Below are positions 1 to 42,730 of a DNA stretch of 42,730 nt, in pieces (position 1 is the stretch's first letter; every line of letters begins with the position of its first letter). The notes beneath the pieces are model-generated. The model searched no databases and was not told the origin of the DNA. It was given only the letters and a program-made list of their open reading frames with translations. The DNA lies in assembly GCA_000739535.1 (NCBI GenBank), contig DF820464.1:374864-417593 (forward strand), in the 5' to 3' direction. Source of the stretch: Candidatus Vecturithrix granuli (GTDB lineage: Bacteria > Moduliflexota > Moduliflexia > Moduliflexales > Moduliflexaceae). Both the position numbers and the translations under genes were made by a program.

Positions 1-65
1 AGAGCTAACACAGTTAAAAACAATGTATAATATCTGACTTTTTTATATGAGTGCGTAATGTGAGT
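1..65. repeat. Left copy of 65-bp terminal inverted repeat
   Basis: Bases 1-65 are the exact reverse complement of 42664-42728. Read outward from the contig, both copies begin ACTCACATTACGCACTCATA and run to the contig end. Identity stops abruptly at 65/66 on this side and 42663/42664 on the other, so this is a repeat boundary and not gradual homology. The left copy supplies the last codons and stop of the truncated drmB. The likeliest reading is the terminus of a multi-copy insertion element at which assembly stopped on both sides. A hairpin-type assembly artefact is the alternative. No transposase is visible because only 65 bp are present. Confidence 0.85.
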
Positions 66-1488
66 GAATTAAGATGAAACGAGGATTGAGACGCCGTATT
101 GTCTGTCCACGCCTTATACGCGCATTATTAAAATTTTCAATTTGTTTTTCGGCTCTTTTCAGAGTATCAGCATTTTCAAGCCATTCATCCAATTTGTCTG
201 TTCTGAATTCAAAGAACAGTCCCTCTCCTCGAACGATAATTGCTGGCAGCCAACGGATAGAATTACTTAATGCCAAATCTGCCCTTTTGGCCTGCAATGA
301 TCTGCCGTCCTCTGGACGCCACCGAGAAAAACCAACAAGCGCCCTGGTTTCGCGGAGTTTATGAATGAGTGAGATGCTTTTGAAAAATCGTTGAACAATG
401 TCTCCGTATTCAATACTCTTTTTATTAGTCACAAAGAAATCCTGATTATCACCGCCTAACTCGGCGATAATGGCCTCATATTCAGAAGTGCGATACAACT
501 CCTCAGAATCTTCGATTGGAGAGCCATCCGTTGAGGTTTCGTTGAGACGTTTCTCGGCTACGGCTAAAAGCTCTTCACAGTCAACCCCTTTCAGGTCTGC
601 GATTGTTTCAAAAACAATTCTGTTTAACTGACCATTTATACGATTTCTTACGAGAACATCCCAATTGTTATCAAGCACTTCAATTATTTTCCGATGAACA
701 GTCTTTTCCCATCGGGGTAAATAAATTGAACTTCGGATTTCAGAGAAATAAACATTTGAAGCGCCACGCTGAACAACCCGCAATGGCTCTCCACAGGATT
801 TGGCTTTATCGTCGATCTCGCCTAACCAGGGTCTATATCCTCCACATCGCTTGCTGATAGATTCTAACGAATCCTTATTGAATGCCCCTGCCAGCGTCCG
901 GTATGCGCCACACGTACAGGTTATTTTAATGCCAGCAAGACTACTTGAGCTTCTTCCCGATTGCAACCGTAATTGGCAATCGTTGTCACAGGTTCCCCCT
1001 TTATGAACCCACTCCATAAACGGAAAATCCTCAATATGCCCTTTTTCGCAAATCGCAATAAATCGTACAGGAATAAGAAAAGAACGTTTATTGGGTTTGG
1101 TTGAGTGACATGACAATCCTGGATAGTTTGGCCCTTCGCAGCGACAGCGGCTTCCATAGAGTGATAATTTCTTCATAAATCCGCATTTTGGACAATAATG
1201 CCACTGAGGAAAACGAACGCACGGAATTTTAAGATGAGGATTTTGAACACCAATTCCGGATTCTCTATAATCTGGAGGGAAACGGAATTCGCTTACATGC
1301 AGACGTTTCTCTAATCGTTCCTCATGAAAAATGAATTCAGTATAATGATCAGGTGCGTCTTGATATGTCGATTCCCAGGCATCTAAACCACATACCATCA
1401 GTGATTCGTCTCCGGGAAAGTTAATCATTTGCCCAATTCCCCAGGGAGAAATCAGTTGAGTACGACGGAGCGGCCTTTTTTGAAACAC
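43..1488 (-). CDS. drmB: DrmB-like DUF1998 protein, C-terminally truncated
   Basis: This is the DISARM-type DrmB partner of the DrmA helicase. The N-terminus has the family's opening (LRRTQLISPWGIGQMINFPG, then DESLMVCGLDAW), followed by Cys-rich putative zinc sites (CPKC at about 99-102, CRC at about 115-117, CTC at about 191-193). The start is a GTG 7 nt after a perfect AGGAGG that lies in the last codons of drmA; the genes are 1 nt apart, so translation is probably coupled. The protein ends after 481 aa at NPRFILIHS plus HYALI. The DUF1998 core normally continues from this RFxLLHTxAH motif for roughly 100 or more residues, so that domain is lost. The last six or seven residues come from the 65-bp terminal repeat, which points to disruption by an inserted element. 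The family call is from recalled motifs; the truncation point is directly visible. Confidence 0.8.
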   Translation of the reverse strand: MFQKRPLRRTQLISPWGIGQMINFPGDESLMVCGLDAWESTYQDAPDHYTEFIFHEERLEKRLHVSEFRFPPDYRESGIGVQNPHLKIPCVRFPQWHYCPKCGFMKKLSLYGSRCRCEGPNYPGLSCHSTKPNKRSFLIPVRFIAICEKGHIEDFPFMEWVHKGGTCDNDCQLRLQSGRSSSSLAGIKITCTCGAYRTLAGAFNKDSLESISKRCGGYRPWLGEIDDKAKSCGEPLRVVQRGASNVYFSEIRSSIYLPRWEKTVHRKIIEVLDNNWDVLVRNRINGQLNRIVFETIADLKGVDCEELLAVAEKRLNETSTDGSPIEDSEELYRTSEYEAIIAELGGDNQDFFVTNKKSIEYGDIVQRFFKSISLIHKLRETRALVGFSRWRPEDGRSLQAKRADLALSNSIRWLPAIIVRGEGLFFEFRTDKLDEWLENADTLKRAEKQIENFNNARIRRGQTIRRLNPRFILIHSHYALI

Positions 1489-1489
1489 G

Positions 1490-4400
1490 CTAATCCTCCT
1501 CTATATCATCTGAACATTCATATCGACTAACAACCACTGCTTCACAGGTCACATCGACATTTCGCATTGATGTTGGCGTTGACCAGGCTTTTTTATTCCA
1601 CTCATCATGAGGGCTGGTTCCGGCAGGATACATTAACGGTAATTCCTCTGTCGGTTTTGAAAAATCACCATACTTCGCTGGTGAATACCGCTCCCATTCA
1701 TCGAGTCGTTCTTTCAGCAGGTTCATCGTCAGGTTTGCTTCATCAGGATCAATGGCCTTAACTCGTTGCTCAAAAATACGAAAGATTTCCTGAGTAAGTT
1801 CATGTTGAGGGAGGGGAGTTGGCGAGGTTCGATTGTTTTTACTCCAATATCTGATAAACCCAACCAACAAAGCATGCAACGCCCTTTCTCTGACAGGAGC
1901 AGAAAATGGGGTAACGCTTGTTGGCTCAACCTGGCTGTAAATTGTCGAATGATACGACCAGAAATGTTCGTAATGTGAACGATCCCTCGGTTTTCCAGGA
2001 TTATAAATCACCACAACCAATCCAGGTCCTTCTTGCGAACGTCCGACTCGGCTGGTTGCTTGAATATATTCTGAGGTGGTTTTAGGCTGACCAATAACGG
2101 TCATTAAGCCTAAACGAGGGACATCAACGCCAACAGAAATCATATTTGTAGCCAGACAAATATCCACTGGATATTGTTTTTCTGTCCGGGGATACGAGAC
2201 TTCCAGAGCTTGAAGAGTATCCGGGATCTCACCACTTGACACTCGACTTGTCAATTCTATCGCATGGTTAATGAACCGTCTGGGATCGCCTTCATCGGTT
2301 TTATGTATATGACTTCGAATCCACACGGCATTTAAATATTCACGAATATCAGCACTGACAAGTGTTGCGGCATGGCCTAATTCTCGAAGACTATTGAAAT
2401 AATTGACAATTGTCCAGTAGGGGTCTCTCTCCTCCTCGGCATTCACTGTTGCAGATTTGCATCCTTGTAAAAGTGCTGAGATCACCCGAACCTGGGTTGT
2501 TGCATGAGAAGAATATCCTGTTGCATGGACGCCTACATAGATCCGACCTTTCGCGTCTTTATCTTCGTATGCAAAGAACGATTCACCGGCATTAATACAT
2601 TGAGGGGGAAATTGAAAGACATTTTCTCTGCCACAATTATACAGAGCATGTCCCTGTTCTCTGGCACGACTGATTGTGGCGGTCGACGCAACAATTTTAG
2701 GTCGAATATGAGGTTGAACTGTTCGGTTAACGCAGAGTTCAGAAATAAGCGTCTCGTAATGACCGACCATAGAACCTAATGGCCCTGAAATGAGATGAAG
2801 CTCATCCTGTATAATCAGTTCAGGAGGAGATAGATTCTCATCTTGTCGGAAACCAAACAATGAGCGGGCTTCAGACTTCCAGGGCAACATGGCAAATTTA
2901 TCAACCGTCCCAATAACAAGAGTTGGCGGCGATTCATAAATGTCTTCATCAATCACCAGAAGGGGAAGATTGAAAGATTTGTCCGAAAATTTGCACTCTT
3001 CATTATGGCATTGAAAGATCACAGTGGAAGGTTTTCGGGATGTTTGATAGCCCTGTACCCTGCAATGATTCCCCTTGACGTGAACAGGCCCCATTTTCGC
3101 CCCACACCAGGGACATTTTAACATAATGAACGGATTCTCCTTCGTGTCTCCTTGCCCCATCTTTTTGAGGACTCTTACAGCTTCATCCCGTCTATTAGAA
3201 CTCAGACTCTGGCCTACCCATAATCCAATCGTGATTCTCTCTGTCCCTAATTCGTGTTCATGCTCTTTTCGGATAAGCTCACAGGCACAAATCAGGGAGG
3301 CGGCTTGTTGATATTGTTGAGCGTTTAACAGGCGGAGTGTGTAACGCATCAACACAGTCGTCCCGCTGTCAAATGAGTCGCAGAGCCGTTTCAAAAAGAT
3401 GGTAAACGCTGTTAACCCCAAATACGCCTCTGTTTTTCCACCGCCTGTTGGAAACCAGATCAGGTCCACAAGCTTTCTTTCTTCGTCGTCAGGGGATATC
3501 ATTGATTGAAGATTCATCAGGATAAACGCGATCTGAAACGGTCGCCACGAACCGAGCTTTTTCGGCCATGTGTCAGGATGATGTATGTCAGGATATTCGA
3601 TAGGTGTAAGCGATAATGATTGATCCTCATTCACATTCCATTCGCGTAACTTAATACCATATCGTAATTGTTGCATCAGCATCGCTCTGTTCATAAGCTG
3701 GAATGCTTTTCTGACCTTCTGATCTGTCTTCAATAATGCGATTCCTCTCCTCATGCGGTTCAGACAGGTTTTACATTGTTGAATATGTCGTTCTGCGGTC
3801 TGGTGTAGCTCTTCAGAGAGTATTTCAGAGGCAATGGCTGTTTCCTGTTCAGTAATCCAGGCTTCGTATTTTTGACATAATGCAGAGAGATTTGATGTCA
3901 GAGAATCTGACTCACCATAGTCACTCATATCATACATCTTCAAGGTAATGTCATCAAATTTCGTAGGAAGAATGGGCTGTATTTCAAACGTTGGCAGAAT
4001 TTCAGCCTGTATTTCTGAAGCTCGTTGTTCACCAGGCTCTATGCCCCATGATGGAGCGCAACCGTGCCCAATAGCAAAGGTATGATGATGCCTGTAGAGA
4101 AGTCTTACCGATCTCTCATCCTCATTCTGGGATGTGGATTTGGATGAAGGATATGGGAGGAAGCAGGGAGTAGCTTCCTGGGCTCTCACTGTAAATCCCA
4201 CCTGAAAGAAGCAATCATCTGTGTCAACACGACTATTTGACGACTTTAGATTGTTAATGAGTGAGAACGTGTAAAGTTGACGAGTCTCATCAAATTGAGT
4301 GGTAGGCGTTCTGTTTGTAATGTTCAGGATAAGATCGATAGATTTGTTGTCTTTCTGTATGTCGAAGTTACATGAACGTTTCTTTTGGGTAGGGAGAACC

Positions 4401-4877
4401 GATCTGGGAATAGAGATTTCTGTATCAAGAGGCTCTCTCAGATACCCGCGTTTCGTGATTGGATTCCCGTCTTTATCAGGAACTGCAACATCACCAATTT
4501 TATAGCGGCCTGCTGTGATTGTAATACGAAATCCCTCTTTCGGAATATCAAGAAAACAACTTATCCCCATTGCTGAAGGTAAGTAACTATTGGCAAGATT
4601 CAAGGTGTCATCATCAATATCAGAACTCTCATCCAAACTTCCTGAATCACGTGTTTCAATATCGCCCTCTCCGTCAGAGACGATGATTTCAGCTTCCTCT
4701 AATAGCACATTAAGAACTTCTCTTTCAGTTTCACCAGTAGAATCGATTTCCTGAATCAGTGCTGTCTGTGGAAATAAAATTCCTGCTCCATATCTGAGCC
4801 GTGGAGGTTCAAGAAGAATCTCTTCGCCATTTTTTTGTAGAAGGGGAGAGGTAAAATGTAGATTGGATACTTTTCAC
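1490..4877 (-). CDS. drmA: DrmA-like DISARM helicase (start region frame-disrupted)
   Basis: Large SF2 helicase of the DrmA type, the core motor of DISARM-like anti-phage systems. Counting from the GTG at 4708 (1072 aa), it shows Walker A WFPTGGGKT (418-426), a zinc-ribbon-like insert (CPWC 532-535, CHNEEC 567-572), DEAH-like QDELHLISGPLGS (634-646), STAT (675-678) and motif VI ATSRVGRS (884-891). The 55 codons upstream of 4708 stay open and encode family-like sequence (EEILLEPPRLRYGAGILFP) but contain no ATG, GTG or TTG before the TGA of the preceding gene. In another frame a GTG at 4877 overlaps that TGA (GTGA). Dropping one A from the A7 run at 4830-4836 would join it to the drmA frame, giving 1128 aa starting MKSIQSTFYLSPSTKNGEE. 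I give the wide interval for that reason. A sequencing indel, slippage or a real frameshift are all possible. Confidence 0.8.
4830..4836 (-). other. A7 homopolymer at the predicted drmA frame switch
   Basis: Seven T on the plus strand (A7 in the mRNA sense, context ACAAAAAAATGG) lie between a GTG start that overlaps the previous stop codon and the open drmA frame. A net loss of one A makes a single continuous reading frame; with A7 the GTG frame ends after 22 codons. The geometry is visible. Whether it is an assembly error, transcriptional slippage or phase variation is inference. Confidence 0.6.
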
Positions 4878-7800
4878 ACTGCTAATCTTTTATTAATCTT
4901 CAGTAAATGTGATGGAATAGGAATATCCAATTCCCAAGTAATATTCATTGGCCTACTTCCTGAATGGGATATGTAATTGGCTGTTCCTAAGAAGTGGTAA
5001 GGAGCTGAAAACCCTTGTTCTCGTTTGTTTTCTCTGACAAATAATAGAATGATATTTCCTGTTTTACGATGATTGATGTACCTTTGTCCTGTAGAAGAGG
5101 TTTCAGAAGTTGTACTTTGCGACTGCCAATGAAAAAGTGTTTCATTAATAGCATAATCTTCATACATTGTGCTTGGGGAATAGTCTTTTTCAGATTTATT
5201 TAACGTAATCAGGAAAATATCTGTTTTTAAGTGTGGAAAATATCTGACGCCTTCCCGATGAGAAGGCATTGAGGTAAAAGAATAATAACCAAACGCACTT
5301 AATATTTCATCTCGTGTATAGCATGAATGAACATCTAAAACGCAAGGGTATGTTAATTCTGCTTCTTTTTCAATAAAATCGACATGATCATAATTGTATT
5401 GAAGTATTTCCTGTATTTCTTGAGATAAATTCCGATTTTTGAACAGTCTTTGGAATATGTCGCTAACCTGTGTATAATCATATTGCTGCAAGGGTTTTTG
5501 CCATATATCATAATAGAACATTGTGATATATTGTCGTTCTTCTTTAGAAAGCTGAGGTTCAATAATTGTAGGAAGCGATTTCCATTTCTTGAGTAAAAAG
5601 GTGATAAATTCTCGTGAATTGATATGCTGAATTCTTTTTAATCCTTTTGTTATAGTTTCTTTATCAGGATCATCAAATACCTTTAAAACTTTCGCTTCAT
5701 AACAAAGGGAAGACCAGGATGTTTTCGAATAAATGTCTGAGAGGCCAAGTTTGTAGAAGTTGAGGAAATTGGCAAGATTTAACGGTTGCCCACTATCATG
5801 TTCAAATGTTGCTATCTTTCTCACAAACTCTCGTGTGTTTGATGTGAAGTATTTCTGGATATTGTGAAGGATATATTCTTTTGAGCGTTTTTCTAATTTA
5901 ATGAAGCAACCGGCCGGTAGATTAGGAAAGTCCTGTTCGATCTCTTTTTTTATAGAGGTTTGGGTTCGTCCTAATAATGCTCGAAATTTGGCCTCAAATG
6001 AGTATTGTTTATGTGCTTGTCCAACAAAATCTAATACCGTTAAACACTCTTTCTCTTCGTGAATTCTCAATCCTCTTCCAAGCTGTTGCAAAAATACTGT
6101 CAGGCTCTCGGTAGGACGTAAAAACAAGACTGTATCAATAAAAGGAATATCCACACCTTCATTGTAAATATCTACGACAAAGATAAAGTTGATCTCTTTC
6201 TTGTGTAGTTTTCGCTGAATTTCTTGCCGTAGTTCTTTTGAAGAATTTCCGTGAAGACATTCAGAGGGAATCCCCTGCTTTTGGAAAAAACGAGCCATAT
6301 ATTCTGCATGGTTTACGCTCACACAAAACCCCAAACCATACACATCTAAAGGGTTCCTGACATATTTGTACAAAGCATTCACGACAAGTTGTGCACGCTG
6401 ATCATTTCCGGTCAACACCCGATCTAATTCTGTGGTATCATACCCACCTCTACTCCATGTAATATGACTAAAATCGATCGTATCAGTGACACCAAAATAT
6501 TGAAAGGGCACAAGTAATTTTCGCTGTATGGCTTCTGGAAGACGGATTTCAGCAGCAATTCGTCCGTCAAAATACTCATTGATAATGTCAGAACCATCCA
6601 TCCTTTCAGGAGTTGCTGTAAGACCTAATAAAACCTTCGGGTCATAATGCGTTAACAATTTTCGATACGATGGAGCGGCGGAATGATGGAATTCATCCAC
6701 AATAATAAAATCATAAAAATCTGGCTGTGTGATGTCTTGTAAGTTTTTTGAGTGGAAGCTTTGAATAGACACGAACAAATGATCTAATCGTTGAGGAATA
6801 TTGAAACCAACCAGCATATCGCCAAAATTATAGTCTTGCAATACCATTCGAAAGCAATCTATACTCTGTTTGAGAATTTCTTCTCTATGGGCAACAAACA
6901 ACAGGCGATTTGCCTGATGAGGATAATTCTTACAAAAACGTTTATAATCAAAAGCAGAAATAATTGTTTTCCCTGTTCCTGTAGCTGCTACAACGAGGTT
7001 TCTATAGTTTTGCCGAAGTGTTCTTTCTGCTTCTAATTTTTCAAGAATTTCTTCCTGATAGAGATACGGTGTGATGTTCACATTAAATGTTGATGTTGAA
7101 AAGGTATGATCTTGTCTTTCCGAAAGAAGAGCTTGTTTGAGTTGCGTCCTTTTCTCTTCATCATCAAGAGTGAAACAAACAAACTCTTTGTCATTCCAAT
7201 ATGTATGAAACGTTGCAACACATTTTTCAAAAATATCGGGAGAATCTTGGGCGGTAATTTTGATATTCCATTCTAAGCCACTTGTCATGGCCGCTCTTGA
7301 GATATTAGATGATCCGATATAGGCTGTTGAAAATGTCGTTTTTCTATGAAAAATGTATGCTTTTGCATGAAGTCGAGTTCGCTTGGTATCATAGGATACT
7401 TTTATTTCTGTATTGGGTAAGGAGGCTAAAAACTCTATCGCTTCATAATCTGAAGCCCCCATGTAAGATGTCGTGATAATTTTTAGAGTCCCATTTTTAT
7501 TTTTTGTAAACTCTTCTAATTCATCGGCAATAATACGGATGCCACTCCATTTCAGAAAAGACATCAGAAGAAAAATTTCATCACTTGAGAGGATTTCTTT
7601 TCGAATTTCGCTCGCCAAAGTTGGTTCAATAGGAGAACCCGTAAAGAGAGAACTTTCAGCAAGAGGAGTTACCGGTCGGACAAGCTTTTGTGGTTCCAGA
7701 GAAGGCATTTCTATCGTATTGATGATACTCAACAAAATTTCAGGGATTTGAGGAATGGTGAGTTTTTTGAGTTCATCTATAGCAATTTCATCTGCTAATA

Positions 7801-8032
7801 CATGAATAATTTTGTTACAAAGTTGTATCTGTTTATTCTCTTTATCTGTTCCTTTGATACCTTTGAGACCCGTGTTGATCGCCTTACATAGATAACGTGA
7901 TAGAATATAAGGAAGTTCTGCTTGATCGGCCTTTTCCTTTTCGACAAGGAGTTCATGACTGAACTCTTCTAATTGATAATGTAGGAGAGTATTAATTAAT
8001 TGCTCGTAAATTCCCGATCTAATTGGTACCAT
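4874..8032 (-). CDS. PLD-nuclease / DEAD-box helicase / DUF3427 protein
   Basis: A 1052-aa protein with three recognisable parts. An N-terminal phospholipase D-like domain carries one HKD-type motif (H222-A-K224 and GSSN 240-243). The middle is an SF2 helicase with Walker A AATGTGKT (349-356), DEFH (446-449), LTATPER (471-477) and a GRGLR motif VI. The C-terminus resembles DUF3427 and is probably a DNA-binding or nuclease-associated region. Length and order are normal for the COG3886/COG1061-type helicases common in defence islands. In DISARM the PLD protein DrmC is separate; here PLD sits on a helicase upstream of drmA and may take that place (inference). It starts 8 nt after the small upstream gene, with a short purine stretch (AAGAG) before ATG. 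Its TGA overlaps the proposed GTG of drmA. The frame looks intact. Confidence 0.85.
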   Translation of the reverse strand: MVPIRSGIYEQLINTLLHYQLEEFSHELLVEKEKADQAELPYILSRYLCKAINTGLKGIKGTDKENKQIQLCNKIIHVLADEIAIDELKKLTIPQIPEILLSIINTIEMPSLEPQKLVRPVTPLAESSLFTGSPIEPTLASEIRKEILSSDEIFLLMSFLKWSGIRIIADELEEFTKNKNGTLKIITTSYMGASDYEAIEFLASLPNTEIKVSYDTKRTRLHAKAYIFHRKTTFSTAYIGSSNISRAAMTSGLEWNIKITAQDSPDIFEKCVATFHTYWNDKEFVCFTLDDEEKRTQLKQALLSERQDHTFSTSTFNVNITPYLYQEEILEKLEAERTLRQNYRNLVVAATGTGKTIISAFDYKRFCKNYPHQANRLLFVAHREEILKQSIDCFRMVLQDYNFGDMLVGFNIPQRLDHLFVSIQSFHSKNLQDITQPDFYDFIIVDEFHHSAAPSYRKLLTHYDPKVLLGLTATPERMDGSDIINEYFDGRIAAEIRLPEAIQRKLLVPFQYFGVTDTIDFSHITWSRGGYDTTELDRVLTGNDQRAQLVVNALYKYVRNPLDVYGLGFCVSVNHAEYMARFFQKQGIPSECLHGNSSKELRQEIQRKLHKKEINFIFVVDIYNEGVDIPFIDTVLFLRPTESLTVFLQQLGRGLRIHEEKECLTVLDFVGQAHKQYSFEAKFRALLGRTQTSIKKEIEQDFPNLPAGCFIKLEKRSKEYILHNIQKYFTSNTREFVRKIATFEHDSGQPLNLANFLNFYKLGLSDIYSKTSWSSLCYEAKVLKVFDDPDKETITKGLKRIQHINSREFITFLLKKWKSLPTIIEPQLSKEERQYITMFYYDIWQKPLQQYDYTQVSDIFQRLFKNRNLSQEIQEILQYNYDHVDFIEKEAELTYPCVLDVHSCYTRDEILSAFGYYSFTSMPSHREGVRYFPHLKTDIFLITLNKSEKDYSPSTMYEDYAINETLFHWQSQSTTSETSSTGQRYINHRKTGNIILLFVRENKREQGFSAPYHFLGTANYISHSGSRPMNITWELDIPIPSHLLKINKRLAV

Positions 8033-10941: not shown

Positions 10942-10974
10942 AAAAACCGGGTTTCTTGAAGAAACCCGGTTTTT
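10942..10974. terminator. Bidirectional hairpin terminator (shared hairpin family)
   Basis: Perfect 14-bp stem AAAAACCGGGTTTC / GAAACCCGGTTTTT with a TTGAA loop, flanked by A and T runs, between the convergent DMT exporter and chemoreceptor. The same hairpin recurs at 40657-40689 and a variant at 25780-25810. Confidence 0.85.
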
Positions 10975-20199: not shown

Positions 20200-20927
20200 T
20201 TCATGTTCGCAATATTTCGAAAACCTATCATTTTCCGCATACCGTTCACGCCCTTGTAAATGTCTCGACCAATGTTGAACCAGGAGAAGTGGTTGTGGTG
20301 ATTGGCCCATCGGGTTCCGGAAAAAGCACGCTTATCCGCTGCCTGAACCGGTTGGAAATCGCTGATGAAGGGCACATTTTCATTGATGAGATCGATGTGC
20401 TCGATCCAAAGACCAACATCAATAAATTACGCGCAGAAGTCGGGATGGTGTTTCAATCCTTCAATTTATTTCCTCATAAAACCGCGCTTGAAAATATTAC
20501 TCTGGCGCAGCAAGTGGTTCGGAAGCGATCGTTCAAAGAAGCCCGTGAAAATGCGATGGCCTTACTGCACAAGGTCGGAATTCCCGATAAAGCCAATGTC
20601 TATCCAGATCATCTTTCCGGGGGACAGCAGCAGCGGATTGCCATCGCCCGCGCTCTGGCGATGAACCCGAAAGTCATGCTATTTGATGAACCAACCTCGG
20701 CGCTTGACCCAGAAATGATCGGCGGAGTGTTAGATGTCATGAAAACCCTGGCGCGCGAGGGCATGACGATGGTGGTGGTCACGCATGAAATGGGCTTTGC
20801 TCGTGAGGTGGCTGACCGCGTGATGTTTATGGATGAAGGCAAAATTCTGGAAGTCGGCCCACCGGAACATTTTTTCACAAACCCCACTCACGACCGCACA
20901 AAACTGTTTTTGAGTCAGATTCTATAG
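20196..20927 (+). CDS. glnQ: Polar amino-acid ABC transporter ATP-binding protein
   Basis: A 243-aa ATPase of the GlnQ/HisP type with Walker [11 protein letters not shown]-loop [10 protein letters not shown], signature LSGGQQQR, Walker [14 protein letters not shown] and the H-loop [13 protein letters not shown] at 20196 overlaps the upstream stop by 4 nt and has GGAGG 8 nt before it, so it is translationally coupled to permease 2. It is the only ATPase in the cluster and is likely shared by both permeases and both binding proteins. The gene symbol follows family usage, not proven glutamine transport. Confidence 0.93.
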
Positions 20928-20928
20928 C

Positions 20929-21045
20929 ATACTTCAGGAGTGTCAAAGCTCTGCTTTGACAGCGAAAGCAGAGCTTTCGCACATACTTCAGGAGTGTCAA
21001 AGCTCGTCTTTGACAGCGAAAGCTGAGCTTTCGCACTCCTGAAGT
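20929..21045. repeat. Tandem 54-bp palindromic repeat, two copies
   Basis: Two 54-bp units (20929-20982 and 20983-21036) start ATACTTCAGGAGTGTCAAAG and end GAGCTTTCGCAC. They differ at a few positions, including CTCTGC versus CTCGTC. The second is closed by TCCTGAAGT (21037-21045), the complement of ACTTCAGGA, giving a cruciform. Each unit also has internal arms (CAAAGC..GCTTTG, GCGAAAGC..GCTTTCGC). It lies between convergent glnQ and hepT and contains the hepT stop codon. It probably also acts as a terminator for both genes. Confidence 0.8.
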
Positions 21046-25768: not shown

Positions 25769-25779
25769 TATAGTTTGGA

Positions 25780-25810
25780 GAAACCGGGGTTTTTTGAAAA
25801 CCCCGGTTTC
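25780..25810 (-). terminator. Hairpin after pyrG
   Basis: GAAACCGGGGTTTT / AAAACCCCGGTTTC, a perfect 14-bp stem with a 3-nt loop, lies 7 nt past the pyrG stop and 12 nt before the ABC ATPase ATG. A variant of the CCGGGTTTC hairpin seen twice elsewhere. It should reduce read-through into the ATPase gene. Confidence 0.75.
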
Positions 25811-25817
25811 TTGCGTG

Positions 25818-40656: not shown

Positions 40657-40689
40657 AAAAACCGGGTTTCTTGAAGAAACCCGGTTTTT
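40657..40689. terminator. Bidirectional hairpin terminator (second copy)
   Basis: The same 14-bp stem and TTGAA loop as at 10942-10974, here between convergent mobA and the LapA-LapB fusion, with A and T runs on either side. Confidence 0.85.
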
Positions 40690-42172: not shown

Positions 42173-42663
42173 ATTTTTCCTCCATCCAAAGAAATCTTTA
42201 CGCGTTCATAGGTATTTCAGAAAAATATTTGCACACTGCAAAAGCGAGTTTTCTCAACCCGATTTTTTCCTGCAAAGGAATTTCTGAAAGTCTATATGAG
42301 CTACACTTTAGCATTCTATGCGTTTAAACAACCAGGAACAGCAACTTGCCACACAAATTTTTTCATCTACTCAAAGAAAATACTCTCTTTGCTTCGCAAC
42401 CTCTACCTGTATAAAATGGTGCTGTCAATTTTTCTCAACAATGGTAAATGCGTTGATCGACCATTCGCCCTGAGCGTATCAAAGGGCATATTCATCGTTC
42501 GATGCGCTCACCACGAACGGAGGAACTATCTGTAAAACCTGAAATTTAACATTGTCAAATTAAATAAGGAGAATAATAAAATAGCGACTCCTTTGTCAAC
42601 AATAAAAAGATAATTTTTTTATTGCATAAATTCAGGGGTTGAGAATAGCGATTAATTTTATGA
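42173..42663. other. Right-end non-coding region
   Basis: About 490 AT-rich bases with no supported gene. The frame at 42296-42535 encodes RPFALSVSKG, a peptide that arises whenever a well-known palindromic repeat is translated, so it is not a gene. The region ends at the inverted 65-bp terminus. Confidence 0.6.
42463..42526. repeat. Dispersed GCCCTGAGC / GTTCGTGGTGAGC palindromic repeat
   Basis: TTCGCCCTGAGCGTATCAAA (start of the first palindromic half) and CGTTCGATGCGCTCACCACG followed by AACGG (second half) form the two-part repeat widespread in intergenic regions of many bacteria (recalled; its translation gives the PFALSxSKG and HHERR peptides). Each half is internally near-palindromic. 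Confidence 0.75.
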
Positions 42664-42728
42664 ACTCACATTACGCACTCATATAAAAAAGTCAGATATT
42701 ATACATTGTTTTTAACTGTGTTAGCTCT
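42664..42728. repeat. Right copy of 65-bp terminal inverted repeat
   Basis: Exact reverse complement of 1-65. It begins ACTCACATTACGCACTCATA directly after ordinary AT-rich spacer. The final two bases of the window (TT) extend beyond the matching part. Both ends of the contig thus enter the same repeated sequence in the outward direction. Confidence 0.85.
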
Positions 42729-42730
42729 TT

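Follow-up and report, generated by a model that had tools for sequence, protein, structure and literature searches.

An IS701-like insertion sequence very probably splits drmB of a DISARM-type cassette in Candidatus Vecturithrix granuli

The window considered here is the whole 42,730-nucleotide stretch of Candidatus Vecturithrix granuli DNA (G000:C20:374864-417593). The genome, assembled into 21 scaffolds that total 8,384,694 bases, is a metagenome bin whose contamination is estimated at 10.75%. The window encodes genes of a DISARM-type cassette on its minus strand, and one end of the same insertion sequence lies at each of its edges. The features relevant to the analysis are as follows.

Window 1..65, plus strand: end A of an IS701-like insertion sequence, with an imperfect terminal inverted repeat at 35-65
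Window 66..71: target-site duplication GAATTA (6 bp) at drmB; its partner is at L034 3458-3463 (C20:374321-374326)
Window 43..1488, minus strand: 5' fragment of drmB, 481 codons, the final six (SHYALI) and the stop being element-derived
Window 1490..4708, minus strand: drmA, DISARM helicase, 1072 aa, uninterrupted open reading frame
Window 4874..8032, minus strand: PLD nuclease - ResIII/SF2 helicase - DUF3427 protein, 1052 aa, uninterrupted open reading frame
Window 42659..42663: target-site duplication TATGA (5 bp) of a second copy of the insertion sequence; its partner is at L035 4920-4924
Window 42664..42730, minus strand, at the right window edge: end A of this second copy
G000:C20:374327-374389 (L034 3464-3526), beyond a gap of 474 N: end B of the element at drmB

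The minus-strand reading frame from window position 1488 to 43 was identified as DrmB. It matches positions 4-481 of the 604 in the NCBIfam model DrmB_fam (274.8 bits, cut-off 240) and 4-482 of the 606 in the PADLOC DrmB model. An earlier note on this DNA had claimed that the protein is truncated exactly at the boundary of a repeat, and the boundary is indeed sharp: the element occupies positions 1-65 and target DNA starts at 66. A hybrid His codon is the last to contain a host base, and it is followed by the element-encoded residues Ser-His-Tyr-Ala-Leu-Ile and a stop, in agreement with the six or seven repeat-encoded residues that had been proposed. The same note had the protein follow its family as far as PRFILIHS. 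The match to the family up to the insertion site holds, but the Ser is already encoded by the element and is Thr in four distinct relatives.

The left window edge is the assembly gap. Beyond it lies end B of the element and, directly after this, the rest of drmB, a 3' piece whose phase matches that of the 5' piece and which is open for 145 codons without stops. The MZB (DUF1998) domain is encoded here, at C20:374013-374315 on the minus strand (E 4.3e-10 in a Pfam search of the genome; 42.7 bits, cut-off 24.2, in a scan of the protein). The 3' piece matches DrmB_fam at positions 479-603, and alignment to the DrmB of PDB 7s9v places the 5' piece at 12-456 and the 3' piece at 481-618. A DrmB with DUF1998/MZB, a feature of DISARM, is present as sequence, in two pieces. 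The note had proposed to look beyond the left end for an insertion sequence, the rest of the DUF1998 coding region and a target-site duplication; all three are there, the first as the other end of the element. A genome-wide search for the DrmB family returned only these two pieces, and no second drmB was found. Other MZB matches in the genome are to a DruE-like helicase on scaffold C18 (above the cut-off) and to a region on scaffold C21 (below it).

The connection of the two pieces of drmB across the gap is a scaffold join. The UASB270 assembly was made using SPAdes with k = 67, and its contigs were scaffolded by mate pairs with SSPACE (PMC4312070). An assembler at k = 67 cannot go far into a multi-copy repeat, which would account for both window edges stopping after 65-67 repeat bases. 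Thus, the 65 bp given earlier for the repeat is probably a property of the assembly rather than of the element, although the sequence is truly repeated. Such an assembly could also have scaffolded together unrelated contigs that end in the same repeat, with drmB uninterrupted in nature. The mate-pair bridging of an N gap and the at least 39 copies of the repeat make an over-merged scaffold conceivable. However, a wrong join is not expected to bring together complementary halves of one gene in matching phase, or to place the same 6 bp beside both ends of the element (mismatched pairings of flanks give a 5-6 bp match in 99 of 5,581 cases), and relatives have the two halves adjoining in one frame. 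We consider an assembly artefact extremely improbable. A coincidence of contig ends was ruled out by the same 6 bp on both sides together with the complementary drmB halves.

Relatives were sought by a DrmA scan of genome contigs, with a reach of close relatives: five of ten pattern-matching stretches encoded one. Four of the five related loci are distinct (L073 and L074 are identical in DNA, and L074 was left out of the residue comparison). In all five the two parts of drmB adjoin in the same frame, uninterrupted, and the drmB reading frames of the four distinct loci encode 613-619 aa. Homologues that naturally stop at this point, which would have spoken against the earlier reading, were not seen among these close relatives, and a natural short DrmB was rejected because all five run through the site. 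The 3' piece is 69.5-72.0% identical to the four distinct relatives. Of the 84 residues that do not vary among these four it retains 81, and it has all eight invariant cysteines. This retention suggests that the insertion into drmB is recent. Within the phylum, four genomes were examined (this one included), and the other three gave no drmB match; weak transposase matches occur in one of those three. In three of the related loci (L075, L076 and L077, from Phascolarctobacterium, Pseudobutyrivibrio and Lachnospiraceae bins), drmA-drmB is preceded by three genes for proteins of about 680, 860 and 582 aa. In L077, the sole locus in which these were scanned, they match MzaE/AbiU, weakly DrmE, and a NERD-UvrD helicase; next after drmB in this locus comes a DrmMII methyltransferase.

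The open frame and intact invariant cysteines of the 3' piece raise the question of whether DrmB could still function in its truncated form, either by itself as a short variant or in concert with a DUF1998 piece translated on its own. Outside DISARM, YprA-family systems sporadically encode the helicase and OB-CON-DUF1998 apart (PMC12458937), which would give a precedent for the latter. We nevertheless regard both forms of this idea as highly improbable. The cut falls inside an (I/L)HTF(A/S)H segment common to the four distinct relatives, and the 3' piece has no ATG before codon 37 (ATG starts only were considered). Moreover, a target-site duplication and many copies of the element indicate an insertion, not an evolved split of the gene. 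A stop inside end B lies three codons ahead of the 3' piece, so that the open frame is 148 codons long versus the 145 read as drmB.

The ends of the insertion sequence are abundant in the genome. An exact end pattern occurs 78 times, versus 0 times for the reversed control. Genome-wide, 40 of 55 candidate matches to window positions 1-72 were scored, with 97-100% identity across 61 or more of the 72 bases, repetition well in excess of what chance would give, and the copy number judged by the ends is at least 39. One copy, on scaffold C18, has an assembled interior. It is 1,198 bp long (1,200 with the outermost bases) and stands between two N stretches, with its ends repeated outside them. Its single reading frame (L028 1528-2622), read from end B to end A, encodes a 364-aa transposase with DDE domains. 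The best match of this protein is NCBIfam IS701_2 (NF049921 transpos_IS701_2; 325.6 bits, cut-off 250); matches to NF033540 (81.9 bits, cut-off 150) and NF049999 (62.5 bits, cut-off 170) are below the cut-off. The two ends of the 1,198-bp copy are exact matches to ends A and B at drmB. The outermost 31 bp of the two ends form imperfect inverted repeats, with 26 identities over 32 columns. The second copy in the window, at the right edge, is in inverse orientation to that at the left edge, and no long frame is open on both sides of it. Relatives of this insertion sequence move by cut-and-paste transposition, and it probably does so too.

Only one whole transposase gene was assembled in the genome, the other four matches being partial or distant, as is expected if the copies collapse in assembly. 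The interior of the drmB copy consists of N, and the transposase is seen whole only in the C18 copy. The nominal span between the ends at drmB is 602 bp versus 1.2 kb for the complete copy. A shorter derivative element at drmB was considered on account of this small nominal gap, a question that the widely scattered spans of 29 copies (338 to 1,596, mean 985, SD 291) do not decide. Given this scatter, gap sizes are not reliable. The gap at drmB probably holds a whole element. A decayed relative of the transposase is present in two pieces at G000:C18:401746-402737 (L069, L070), which are 57 and 70% identical, the first with two TGA stops; these pieces directly adjoin the end of a fresh copy of the insertion sequence at C18:402769-402794.

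The 29 copies are the distinct ones with both flanks readable among 60 end loci fetched; ends without a partner in reach were dropped. A target-site duplication flanks 28 of them (5 bp in 23 and 6 bp in five), compared with 99 of 5,581 pairings of flanks taken from different copies, and is lacking in one, which was dropped from a test of open frames. Frames of at least 100 codons, open on both sides and in matching phase, flank eight of the 28 copies, drmB included. When the phase was shifted by one or two bases, one copy and one copy of 28 gave such frames, in both cases L009/L054. At 30 codons the numbers are 15 in phase versus ten and eight shifted, and such short frames tell little. The contrast at 100 codons suggests that the insertion sequence probably splits several genes of the genome and that drmB is one among them and not special. 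The seven other copies in such frames are L002, L004, L005, L006, L019, L021 and L024.

Ordinary insertion sequences are rarely lost precisely, that is, together with one copy of the target. This bears on the idea that the insertion is a reversible switch, in which precise loss restores defence in part of the population. The near-identical ends of the copies suggest recent activity, and the 3' half of drmB is undamaged, both of which speak for a switch. Besides the rarity of precise loss, the eight of 28 in-phase copies, compared with one and one after shifting, make drmB look like one of several casualties rather than a specialised switch. We judge a switch to be very unlikely.

The reading that we prefer, with a probability of roughly 0.93, is that an insertion sequence jumped into drmB of a DISARM-type cassette, duplicated 6 bp and split the gene, leaving the cassette most likely silent. 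This is the element insertion that the earlier note had proposed, and both ends, the target-site duplication and both halves of the gene have now been found. A DDE-type element some 1.2 kb long, bounded by imperfect 31-bp inverted ends and encoding one transposase, would have entered drmB and duplicated the 6-bp target. It would thereby separate the first ~475 residues of DrmB from the zinc-binding DUF1998/MZB domain in the last 145. End A would terminate translation after six codons and end B three codons before the 3' piece; given the stop in end B, no fused DrmB product is expected. With the ends placed as they are at drmB, the transposase would run opposite to drmB.

In Serratia DrmAB, the contact between DUF1998 and DrmA covers ~1,230 square angstroms, although DUF1998 touches each RecA domain of DrmA only to a limited extent (PMC9142583). 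DUF1998 is proposed there to act as a hinge in DrmAB activation, and formation of the DrmAB complex is described as essential for phage targeting (PMC9142583). With its DUF1998 domain severed and a second drmB not found, DrmB has very probably lost its activity. A DrmB without DUF1998 would be predicted to form no working DrmAB complex, and the cassette would most likely be silent wherever the insertion is present. The population may also include cells that lack it. The insertion could also have been favoured: in a cassette without a recognised methyltransferase, active DrmAB might target the cell's own DNA, knockout of drmB would relieve this, and a YprA-family system on scaffold C18 could make the loss affordable. 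We consider this unlikely.

The neighbouring drmA and PLD-helicase-DUF3427 genes are uninterrupted. DrmA matches NF038325 (NCBIfam DISARM_DrmAS) with 955.8 bits, at a curated cut-off of 950. The 1052-aa PLD-helicase-DUF3427 protein is the probable nuclease/helicase partner of the cassette, a role suggested by the place of its gene. A PLD domain, as in DrmC, is present in this helicase fusion protein, which matches the DrmC model only at E 9.2e-5. The window has 46 reading frames of at least 100 aa; the products of 19 of them were scanned with Pfam, and none was recognised as a DNA methyltransferase. The DrmMII model (PDLC02649) has no match in the genome at E 0.001, and the same model matches in 10 of 14 control genomes. 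A DrmMI-like protein is encoded on scaffold C18, in another gene cluster.

That cluster, G000:C18:820274-833961 (L080 2275-11412, L081 415-4962), is a candidate defence system. It encodes, in a single row, a DruE-like 1757-aa helicase with MZB, a 181-aa protein without a PADLOC match, a DrmD/DpdE-like 988-aa helicase and the DrmMI-like methyltransferase (1515 aa). In composition it is similar to ARMADA, as described in a 2025 preprint (PMC12458937). Also present in the window is a 33-bp palindromic sequence, at 10942-10974, 25779-25811 and 40657-40689. Two copies are identical and lie between reading frames, and one, at 76% identity, is inside a listed reading frame just beyond the CTP synthase gene. 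These may perhaps be shared terminators or small dispersed palindromes. At window 20928-21035, right after a reading frame that ends at 20927, a 54-bp sequence with internal palindromes (as judged by eye) is repeated in tandem with 94% identity.

These results correct the annotation: the genome should not be counted among those with a working DISARM cassette, and a drmB reading frame that runs out at a scaffold gap is not to be taken for a natural short DrmB. They also show that an insertion sequence has expanded in a genome of a sparsely sampled phylum, probably splitting several genes. The drmB finding alone opens no long-standing question.

Compared with known DISARM systems, the cassette shares a DrmA above its cut-off and a DrmB that spans DrmB_fam in two pieces and has a relative of solved structure (7s9v). 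It differs in the interrupted drmB, in the 1052-aa PLD-helicase-DUF3427 protein seen in place of a stand-alone drmC, in having no methyltransferase recognised among the scanned neighbours and in the lack of a DrmMII match in the genome. The insertion sequence resembles the IS701 family in its transposase, which scores above the NF049921 cut-off, and in its single reading frame. It differs in having a complete Y-(2)-R-(3)-E-(6)-K motif (identified by eye), the tyrosine of which was reported in only 4 of 27 IS701 elements (PMC2266710), and in its duplication length. Target-site duplications are reported to be exactly 4 bp in almost every IS701 element surveyed, typically 5 bp in ISH3 and 5-6 bp in IS1634 (PMC2266710), whereas this element duplicates 5-6 bp. 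Given the IS701_2 protein match and the atypical duplication length, we call it IS701-like rather than a typical IS701 member.

Natural insertions into cas genes are known, and insertion sequences also interrupt other prokaryotic defence systems (PMC10359306, Nat Commun 2023). The word DISARM is absent from the main text of that study, and no interruption of DISARM by an insertion sequence was found among the titles and abstract starts listed in searches of open-licence papers. The cas cases share with drmB the disruption, by a mobile element, of a gene at the core of prokaryotic defence, and differ in the system concerned, here a DISARM-type cassette from an uncultured phylum. The interruption of drmB is an ordinary further instance of this published phenomenon.
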